NCBI GenBank assembly: GCA_025924315.1
Contig: JAICIO010000041.1
Location: 1 to 45,145 of the forward strand
DNA length: 45,145 nt
Direction: 5' to 3'
Origin: Phycisphaerae bacterium
Lineage (GTDB): Bacteria; Planctomycetota; Phycisphaerae; Tepidisphaerales; Tepidisphaeraceae
Positions 28,148 through 37,590 of the stretch are shown here, in pieces. How positions within the stretch are numbered: position 1 is the stretch's first letter; each line of letters opens with the position of its first letter. The translations under genes were made by a program, and so were the position numbers. The notes beneath the pieces were generated by a model that was given only the letters and a program-made list of their open reading frames with translations, did no database searches and had not been told where the DNA came from.

Positions 28148-29410
28148 CTAGTTGCCGACCGTCCACTGTTTCCAGATCGCGTCGCTCACGAGATTCGGGC
28201 GGAGCGGCACGTTTTCGACAGGCGGCGGGGGCTTGATCTTTCGCTTTGGCGCCGGTTCCGGCTCGGCCGGTTGGATCGGTTCCTCTTCGGGGTGGTTGAA
28301 CTTGCTCACGCTATAGAGCAGGCCGAGCGCCGCACAGGTGATGACAAGTCCGCTTCCGCCGGCGCTGACGAGCGGGAGTGACAAACCCTTCGTGGGCACA
28401 CTCACTGTCGCGACGGCGATGTTGATCATCGCCTGCAGGCTCACCATCGATCCGATGCCAAAGGCAAGCATTCGGCCGAGGCTGTCGCGCTTCTGCTTCA
28501 GGCATTGCCACGCGACGTACATAATCCCCAGGTACAGAGCGACCGTGAGAAGCGCACCGAACAGGCCGAGCTCTTCGCAAATGACCGCGAAGATGAAGTC
28601 GGTCGTGTCTTCTGGGAGATAGCCGAGCTTCTGAATCCCGTTGCCGAGTCCTTTGCCCGTGACTCCGCCCGTCGCGAAGCTCAGCAGGCTCTGGATCATG
28701 TGATAGCCTTCCTTCTGCGGCGCGGAATACGGGTCGACAAACGCGATCATGCGCCGCCAGCGATATTCCTTGTGCATCACGAACCATGCGCCCGCGCACA
28801 GGGCAGGGGGGATCACGACGAGCAGATGCCACCATTTCACGCGGCCGACGACGAGCATCGTCATCGCGCACACCGCGATGAGTGCAGCGGTTCCGAAGTC
28901 CTGGATGACCGTGAGCAGACACAGCGCGCCGACCGGAATCAGCGTGAAGAGGAACATCGAGAACTTATCGAGGTTCACCGGCCGTGACGTGAGCCACCAC
29001 GAGAGGAAGAACACCACCGCCCACTTCGCGAGTTCCGAAGGTTGAACTTGCACAGGGCCGAGCGGCAACCATCGACGCGCGCCGTTCACTTCCAAGCCGA
29101 TGTGCGGCACGAGCACGAGAACGCTCGTGACACCCGCGATCCCCAGCAGCCAAACGACATGATTGCGAAGCAAGCCGCCTTTGGTCGAAAGGATCTTCCG
29201 GTAATCGATGTTGCCGACGATGAAGAAGGTGACCAGCGCAATCGCCGCGAAGATGGCATCGCGCGTGCCCGCGACCGTCCAGCGCCAGCCCACGTTGCCG
29301 GAAACGTTCATCGAGGCGGATTGCACCATCAGCGCGCCGAGCAGAAGGAGCGAGAGCACGCAAAGCGTAAGAATGTCGCGCAGGCGAAGGCGATAGATCG
29401 ACGGGTCCAT
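28148..29410 (-). CDS. ftsW: SEDS glycosyltransferase FtsW
   Basis: FtsW polymerises lipid II at the septum together with FtsI. The 420 residues form about ten membrane helices. SEDS signatures: NGARRWLPLGPVQVQPSELAK, IQDFGTAALIAV, and GLSLPLVSAGGSGLV near the C-terminus. A Pro/Lys-rich cytoplasmic tail of about 60 residues (PEPAPKRKIKPPPPVE) extends past the last helix and may bind partners. Here FtsW is the first gene of the dcw-like set in transcription order, and murD does not precede it. Confidence 0.95.
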   Translation of the reverse strand: MDPSIYRLRLRDILTLCVLSLLLLGALMVQSASMNVSGNVGWRWTVAGTRDAIFAAIALVTFFIVGNIDYRKILSTKGGLLRNHVVWLLGIAGVTSVLVLVPHIGLEVNGARRWLPLGPVQVQPSELAKWAVVFFLSWWLTSRPVNLDKFSMFLFTLIPVGALCLLTVIQDFGTAALIAVCAMTMLVVGRVKWWHLLVVIPPALCAGAWFVMHKEYRWRRMIAFVDPYSAPQKEGYHMIQSLLSFATGGVTGKGLGNGIQKLGYLPEDTTDFIFAVICEELGLFGALLTVALYLGIMYVAWQCLKQKRDSLGRMLAFGIGSMVSLQAMINIAVATVSVPTKGLSLPLVSAGGSGLVITCAALGLLYSVSKFNHPEEEPIQPAEPEPAPKRKIKPPPPVENVPLRPNLVSDAIWKQWTVGN

Positions 29411-29508: not shown

Positions 29509-29521
29509 CTTCGTGTTCAAA

Positions 29522-29574
29522 TGTCGGGGGTTGAAGAAGGAGGGGGGGAACCTTCTTCGGGGAGTACCCCCGAC
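29522..29574. repeat. Two-level palindrome between terminators
   Basis: Outer arms TGTCGGGGGT and ACCCCCGACA are perfect. Inside, GAAGAAGG pairs with CCTTCTTC. The whole 53 bases can fold into one interrupted hairpin. It abuts the T run of the candidate small RNA. Confidence 0.75.
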
Positions 29575-29670
29575 AAAAAAAGCTCCGTCGACTGTTCATC
29601 GACGGAGCCCTCATGGCTCGTTTAGCCGAATGGCCTTTCGGCCACTCGCTTTGGACGACTTCGTCCACTG
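29575..29670 (-). ncRNA. Candidate small RNA of about 95 nt, hairpin array with terminator
   Basis: On the minus strand, after a promoter at 29704-29677, four hairpins follow in a row. They are TGGACG/CGTCCA (29667-29652); TGGCC-GAAA-GGCCA with a GNRA tetraloop (29644-29631); GGCT/AGCC (29627-29615); and a 10-base terminator stem GCTCCGTCGA/TCGACGGAGC (29608-29582) followed by seven T. It matches no RNA family I recognise. A 19-codon frame (29681-29622) starts inside the -10 element, so coding is unlikely. It could also be a structured nuoC 3' region. Confidence 0.55.
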
Positions 29671-29676
29671 CTCACC

Positions 29677-29704
29677 ATCATATTCGGCGCTTTGGAGAAG
29701 GCAA
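29677..29704 (-). promoter_or_regulatory. Putative promoter of the candidate small RNA
   Basis: On the minus strand: -35 TTGCCT (29704-29699), 16-base spacer, -10 TATGAT (29682-29677). It starts a transcript near 29670, just before the first hairpin. Confidence 0.5.
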
Positions 29705-29734: not shown

Positions 29735-30259
29735 TTACGCCGGCCCTTTCGGGTAATCCGGTTGCTGCTGCCAGTCCAGTTCGACGCTCGCGGGGATGCC
29801 GTGATACTCGCGCGGGAAGACATAGTCCTTCCGCAACGGGTAACCTTCCCAATCGTCGGCACATAGGATCCGGCGAAGATCCGGATGCCCGGCAAAACTG
29901 ATCCCGAACATGTCATACGCTTCGCGCTCGTGCCAATCGGCGGCGGGCCAAAGATCGCGCACGCTCGGCACACTCGGATTCTCTCGCGGGGTGAAAACCT
30001 TTACCGCGAACATGTGAGCGTGATCGAAACTCCACAGGTCATACACGACACACATGTTTCCATCGGCGACATAATCCACACCGCTGAGGCATTGCAACCA
30101 GTCGAACTTCATCGCCGGTTCTCGCAGCAGGTACTCTGCGATTTCTCGCCAGTTCTCCGCGTCGACATGAACCCGCGGATGGCGATCGTCCGGTAGCGAC
30201 GCGGTGATCTTTCCGCCGAAGGTTCCCGTGAGAATTTGTGCGATGGCTTGAGGCGTCAT
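29735..30259 (-). CDS. nuoC: NADH-quinone oxidoreductase subunit C (30 kDa)
   Basis: NuoC is a peripheral-arm subunit of respiratory complex I. ATG 30259 gives 174 residues; an in-frame TTG at 30283 would overlap the -10 element, so ATG is preferred. Family features: FDWLQCLSGVDY, SVRDLWPAADWHEREAYDMFG and HPDLRRILCADDWEGYPLRKDY, the last being the Complex1_30kDa signature. No other nuo gene is nearby, so it is separated from the usual nuoA-N operon. A good promoter (30311-30283) lies directly upstream. Confidence 0.95.
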   Translation of the reverse strand: MTPQAIAQILTGTFGGKITASLPDDRHPRVHVDAENWREIAEYLLREPAMKFDWLQCLSGVDYVADGNMCVVYDLWSFDHAHMFAVKVFTPRENPSVPSVRDLWPAADWHEREAYDMFGISFAGHPDLRRILCADDWEGYPLRKDYVFPREYHGIPASVELDWQQQPDYPKGPA

Positions 30260-30282
30260 GGAGGTTTCCGGGGACGCGCTCA

Positions 30283-30311
30283 AGTATAAGGCGCGCCCAA
30301 TTGAACGCCAA
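30283..30311 (-). promoter_or_regulatory. Sigma70-type promoter of nuoC
   Basis: On the minus strand: -35 TTGGCG (30311-30306), 17-base spacer, -10 TATACT (30288-30283). The predicted start near 30276 leaves a leader of about 17 bases before ATG 30259. Confidence 0.65.
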
Positions 30312-37064: not shown

Positions 37065-37072
37065 ATCGTTTG

Positions 37073-37590
37073 CACGCGGCTGCGTGTAAGCCGAATTTTG
37101 TTTACCCTGATTGATCGAGCGGGCCTTTCGACTCGCTGCTCTCGCTCAAGGCAGGCCATCATTTCTCTGGGATCACGGTTGCCCGTGACCTCAAGCGACC
37201 TACCCGCGGATTTGTCCCAGCCAGCAAGCTGACTGGGCGTTCGGCGCGGGCCACGCCTATCCGCATATTTGGTCTTGCTGCCAGTGGGGTTTGCCGTGCC
37301 GTTTGTGTCACCACAAACGCGGTGCGCTCTTACCGCACCTTTTCACCCTTACCTGAGGAATAAGGATGAAGGATGAATTATGAACGATGAAAACGCCTAT
37401 TTCATCCTTCATAATTCAGACTTCATCCTTATTCCCCCGGCGGTTTGTTTTCTGTGGCACTTTCCGTCGGATTGCTCCGCGTCGCCGTTAGCGACCACCG
37501 CGCCCTTGCAGTTCGGACTTTCCTCACCCCAGGGCAAGCTCGGGACAGGTCCCTCGCCTGACTCAGGGCGCGATCGCCACTGCAGCCGCG
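37073..37590 (-). ncRNA. rnpB: RNase P RNA, bacterial type A
   Basis: The catalytic RNA of RNase P, which matures tRNA 5' ends. On the minus strand the 5' P4 segment GTGAGGAAAGTCCG and the 3' partner ACAAAATTCGGCTTAC are present. So are the P10/P11 core GCCACAGAAAACAAACCGCC, CAGGTAAGGGTGAAAAGG, GTGCGGTAAGAGCGCACC (P13) and AGACCAAATATGCG. P1 is formed by CGCGGCTGC near the 5' end and GCAGCCGCG near the 3' end. At about 518 nt it is longer than usual. The extra length is a palindromic repeat in the P12 region (37357-37435). A TATAAT box lies just upstream. Confidence 0.95.
37357..37435. repeat. GATGAA-word palindrome inserted in rnpB helix P12
   Basis: Arms 37357-37392 and 37400-37435 match at 33 of 36 positions, giving a 36-pair hairpin with a 7-base loop. 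The arms are drifting GGATGAA words. The element lies between ACCGCC and CAGGTAAGGG of the RNase P RNA, exactly where the variable P12 helix belongs, and extends it. Confidence 0.88.

Follow-up and report, generated by a model that had tools for sequence, protein, structure and literature searches.

Candidate small RNA genes with conserved C-rich loops form a multi-copy family in Tepidisphaeraceae, with a long form downstream of nuoC

Three described RNAs come closest in design to the one reported here. sX13 of Xanthomonas recognizes G-rich sites near starts through its C-rich loops, with Hfq being dispensable (PMC3771888). In RepG of Helicobacter pylori it is the C/U-rich loop of the terminator hairpin that pairs with the target (PMC8295292). 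The 6C RNA, or B11 (RF01066), contains hairpins with six or more C, is found in many genera and has been reported to pair independently of a chaperone (PMC4046766, PMC8628891). We have analyzed a locus on a contig of 45,145 nucleotides (the window; JAICIO010000041.1, positions 1 to 45,145) from a member of the Tepidisphaeraceae (Planctomycetota). We consider, with a probability of roughly 60%, that it is the gene of a small RNA from a new multi-copy family with C-rich loops, which would act in trans, without a chaperone, by pairing with G-rich sites in mRNAs. Judged by its sequence, the locus has the features of a trans-encoded small RNA gene, i.e., its own promoter, a conserved structure and no conserved reading frame, and it can be taken as a predicted gene of this kind. 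The original prediction had also proposed a small RNA gene here and was right about the promoter and the structure, but the spot that it marked covers just the first half of the gene, which extends further.

The gene lies on the minus strand in the gap between nuoC (29735-30283, minus strand; PF00329, E 5e-45) and ftsW (28148-29410, minus strand; PF01098, E 2e-86), which holds the promoter, the hairpins and the stem followed by U7. The promoter (29677-29704) is made up of TTGCCT (29704-29699), a 16-nt spacer and TATGAT (29682-29677), exactly as had been predicted. Taken alone it is at chance level, with 3 such sites per 10 kb vs. 2.5 expected; its retention in the long-form relatives is described below. 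From its position transcription is expected to start at ca. 29670. The 5' leader that follows (29670-29615) folds into the three short hairpins of the original prediction, UGGACG-aagu-CGUCCA, GAGUGGCC-GAAA-GGCCAUUC (tetraloop at 29639-29636) and GGCU-aaacg-AGCC, and leads into the long terminator stem and U7. The fold has a free energy of -52.5 kcal/mol (z -7.7, and z -6.3 in a second fold test, against shuffled sequence). The leader hairpins, including the GNRA one, could not be aligned to the relatives. The conserved 5' module (29619-29575) consists of GAGCC-AUGAG-GGCUC overlapping a terminator-like hairpin, whose strong stem spans 29610-29582, followed by U7 (29581-29575). This is the 10-base stem with seven T that had been noticed before; 10 bp of it are strong, and it reaches 15 bp if the A/G side of the 5' arm pairs into the U tract. 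Two other features of the window are a bacterial class A RNase P RNA (37071-37590, minus strand, 284.7 bits) and a VapC-like PIN-domain protein (PF01850; 32693-33088, minus strand), possibly the toxin of a toxin-antitoxin pair.

The RNA had been predicted to end at 29575, after about 95 bases. This boundary was misplaced: BLAST against 40 related genomes aligned the terminator hairpin together with an unbroken continuation beyond it, GUCGGGGGUACUCCCCGAAGAAGGUUCCCCCCCUCCUUCUUCAACCCCCGAC, and left the leader unmatched. A better conserved hairpin begins at 29574 and is followed by a further terminator at 29508-29483, so that the RNA would reach ca. 190 nt by read-through, as one member of a multi-copy family. 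The structural conservation that had been anticipated in relatives applies to the covarying terminator hairpin, whereas the leader hairpins are species-specific. The conserved hairpin, hereafter the core, occupies 52 nt on the minus strand (29574-29523) and has an outer stem (GUCGGGGG/CCCCCGAC) and an inner stem (GAAGAAGG/CCUUCUUC), with C-rich internal and apical loops whose C tracts are unpaired. The internal loop on the 5' side, UACUCCCC (29566-29559), contains an unpaired UCCCC bulge, and the apical loop, UUCCCCCCCU (29550-29541), contains a run of seven C. Over 60 aligned copies, 98.9% of the stem cells were paired and compensatory two-sided changes were found in 14 of the 16 stem pairs, with a covariation score of 0.483 vs. 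0.158 in shuffled alignments and at most 0.102 in slid controls. The stems vary and the loops are nearly invariant: the apical loop is exactly UUCCCCCCCU in 33 of the 60 copies, and the C run of the internal loop is kept in nearly all. The strand of the RNA is fixed by the U-runs and the promoters. Open reading frames cross the region and a coding explanation was therefore considered, but it was dropped, since the length of the core (53-61 nt across the copies) takes all three residues modulo 3, i.e., it varies regardless of frame.

A covariance model of the core (R1) was built from 20 copies, after checking the covariation of this seed; it recovers the window copy at 29517-29574 with 86.8 bits (E 2e-14). 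The search with R1 found 54 copies in 20 of the 26 Tepidisphaeraceae genomes, one to nine per genome, an assignment to the family that rests on the labels of metagenome-assembled genomes, many of them being metagenome bins. None of the 222 other genomes of the class contained the core, and among 294 genomes sampled from the phylum only the window's own genome gave a match. This genome has four copies, one in the window, one in contig C51 and two in contig C122, the latter two being short forms in the same orientation, 724 bp apart. A mobile repeat was ruled out as an explanation, as the four copies share only the core and the promoter-like spacing and have different flanks. The core also occurred in genomes labeled as other phyla. 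In one, with a contig labeled Gemmatimonadetes RYN_362, there is just one copy, and its nuoC is distant (40%). An assembly labeled Methylococcaceae isolate 8 has five copies (among them loci L081 and L091), which suggests a wrong label or a mixed bin. The core was also found in three virus contigs (L094:3175-3230, L096:2977-3032 (IMG/VR) and L095:720-780). L094 and L096 are related, and in both the core follows a tailed-phage tape-measure gene (proteins 86% identical) at a distance of 78-94 nt and has a -10 box and a U-run of its own. The sequenced phages of INPHARED gave no match.

Many copies of the core are minimal genes, in which the hairpin is preceded by a -10 box at 6-10 nt and followed by a U-run and the motif UGCGC. 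The five positions 6-10 nt before the core hold 26 -10-like hexamers, vs. about one per position elsewhere; therefore, the RNA in many copies would be the hairpin and the U-run alone. UGCGC follows the terminator U-run in 29 of the 60 copies, in the window at 29474-29470 (minus strand) after the last U-run. A general habit of the window genome to end terminators with a T-run and GCGC was refuted by counting T-runs, since few of its T5 runs are followed by UGCGC. We noticed no conserved neighbor at the short forms. Neighbor calls by longest open reading frame are unreliable at these GC-rich loci, several of them looking antisense, and tblastn with nuoC was used instead for the synteny described next.

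The window copy is a long form of ca. 190 nt that comprises the promoter, the leader, the conserved hairpin with U7, the core and a tail. In nine of the 16 nuoC-bearing genomes the long form follows nuoC on the same strand, with the core 135-496 nt away. In a tenth genome nuoC is followed by a tail-only form without core, and in two others (G007 and G023) the core shares its contig and strand with nuoC but lies 8.5-12.7 kb further downstream. The position between nuoC and ftsW had been taken as a possible link to respiration or division; the first neighbor is conserved, and the second is found in the window genome alone, as a chance neighbor. In the window, nuoC is flanked by an epimerase gene on one side and by the small RNA and ftsW on the other, with no other nuo gene seen adjacent. 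Most long-form relatives keep a promoter of the type TTG..., mostly with a 16-nt spacer, and TATnnT, ca. 87-102 nt before the core, and the mean promoter score of the long forms was 8.64 vs. 6.08 (sd 0.61) in shuffles. In the relatives, the tail contains two or three further hairpins with C loops, the last one being the terminator, and covariation was present. The window tail has lost these C loops; in their place there is a GC-rich terminal terminator, CCGCCCGGAUC-GACC-GAUCCGGGCGG (stem-loop at 29508-29483), with a U-rich stretch (29508-29475 in all, minus strand). A model of the tail (R2) matched 13 genomes of the family. It also gave weak but consistent matches in six genomes from a different family within the class (L201-L206), with a two-hairpin C-loop RNA and a U-run. 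The RNA of these six, matched by the tail model only, reads GUCCAA-UCCCCC-AUUGGAC, GGUUCCCC and GGCCCGG-UCCACCCC-GCCGGGCC before the U-run, with GCGC next in several.

Different explanations can be given to parts of this pattern. The promoter, the hairpins and the U-run of a free-standing RNA of 95 nt do exist, and its function could reside in the GNRA hairpin and its neighbors; however, the leader hairpins are missing in all relatives, whereas the C-loop hairpin after them is conserved, and we find this highly improbable. The 5' module could also be a cis attenuator, in which the U7 hairpin would terminate transcription unless a signal favored the pairing GAGCC:GGCUC, setting the output of the C-loop RNA. 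The terminator-like hairpin and its U-run are located directly before the core or a core remnant in eight genomes, over which the hairpin covaries (95% of cells paired, four of the ten pairs changed on both sides), and GAGCC can pair with GGCUC in the 5' arm of the terminator (97.5% of the cells paired). Nevertheless, the covariation of this antiterminator did not exceed chance (107 of 500 shuffles), its pairing is far weaker than that of the terminator, and the leader is unconserved, all of which makes an attenuator unlikely.

The core might also be no more than an intrinsic terminator of an unusual kind, or a repeat that derives from a terminator and sits behind genes, without a function of its own. 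Indeed, most short copies end in a U-run and they are often found 50-170 nt past an open reading frame. On the other hand, a terminator does not need an invariant C7 loop and a UCCCC bulge held by compensating stems, nor -10 boxes 6-10 nt before the hairpin, and the core of the long forms in relatives leads into further C-loop hairpins and not into a strong U-run. With a conserved loop and a promoter directly upstream, the core departs from an ordinary terminator, and we doubt that it is one. The C loops could instead bind a protein or the ribosome, for instance as a decoy that captures Rho or a C-binding protein, or as a global modulator of translation through the arm that resembles the anti-Shine-Dalgarno (anti-SD) sequence. 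The many copies with nearly identical loops and no conserved neighbor noticed at the short forms would fit, as would the similarity to the 16S anti-SD of the loop and its 3' arm, which read CCCCUCCUUC, the complement of GAAGGAGGGG; besides, the mRNA targets of the C-loop RNA are putative. The known C-loop RNAs sX13 (PMC3771888), RepG (PMC8295292) and 6C (PMC8628891) base-pair with mRNAs, and binding of this kind appears to us rather unlikely here.

Under the preferred reading of a trans-acting small RNA, the family probably silences mRNAs by pairing with G-rich ribosome-binding sites, by analogy with these RNAs. Transcription would proceed from ca. 29670, and some transcripts would end at the internal terminator (29575), giving ca. 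95 nt without the C loop; others would read through to ca. 29478, giving ca. 190 nt with the C loop included. As the internal terminator precedes the C loop, much of the RNA might never carry it. The stable stem would display the seed in a loop, a design known from sX13, RepG and 6C. Through the C loop and the adjoining CUCCUUC arm, a copy of the anti-SD, the RNA would base-pair with several mRNAs at ribosome-binding sites that are G-rich or contain GAAGGAG, and would thereby prevent their translation, with no need for Hfq. In 438 kb of the window genome, GAAGG, AAGGA and AGGAG were the top 5-mers before starts; GGGGG was not enriched at the starts of this genome, AGGAG-type Shine-Dalgarno sequences being enriched instead. 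In this genome, complementary stretches of at least seven bases were found in 13 of 287 Shine-Dalgarno regions vs. one and three in control regions; any sequence resembling the anti-SD would give such a result, and targeting is not proven by it. The search for an Hfq gene (PF17209) found none in 27 genomes, with control genomes being positive. A more speculative extension, to which we would give a low probability, is that this lineage, seemingly devoid of Hfq, uses a network of near-identical C-loop RNAs with one hairpin each, as many as nine in a genome and each with its own promoter, as a shared anti-SD layer of control, with the nuoC copy as a master copy gated by the internal terminator and with tailed phages tapping in through a copy located among their tail genes. 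A covarying, multi-copy RNA with a copy beside a respiratory gene and others in phages offers an entry to post-transcriptional control in bacteria seemingly without Hfq.

The original prediction that the RNA resembles no familiar family has held, since in this region, as in the other loci searched, all Rfam families stayed below their gathering scores. Up to E 10, no convincing match was found between 29400 and 29800, and 6C (RF01066) gave none there, at gathering level or up to E 10. The best score was that of Pxr of myxobacteria (RF01812), which also has a first hairpin with a UCCCCCCC loop followed by a GC-rich terminator; however, with 23.0 bits (E 0.057) the match (29562-29474) stayed far below the gathering score, which is 80, and it contains broken pairs. 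We searched the literature on Tepidisphaeraceae and found no structured regulatory RNA with C loops, nor did we find one in Rfam. By analogy, the family resembles sX13, RepG and 6C in design and belongs to none of them in Rfam. Like sX13, it is a highly structured RNA with C-rich apical loops, three or more in the long-form relatives. sX13, in contrast, is one 115-nt RNA from a different phylum, while here there are multiple copies and an extra C-rich internal loop; the likeness is one of design, with no relation seen at the level of Rfam. As in RepG, it is the terminator hairpin that carries the C-rich loop, the presumed pairing site, the short forms being such a hairpin with a U-run; RepG has an additional stem-loop on its 5' side and its target, a G-repeat, is known, and again the likeness seen is one of design. 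With 6C the family shares hairpins with C runs, conserved among genera; the chaperone-independent pairing that has been reported for 6C would apply here as well. 6C is actinobacterial and has two hairpins, each with at least six C in the loop, whereas the window copy has one hairpin, with its C7 apical loop nested above the UCCCC internal loop, several C-loop hairpins being seen only in relatives; paralogues and the synteny with nuoC also set the family apart. It appears to be an independent case of the C-loop principle.
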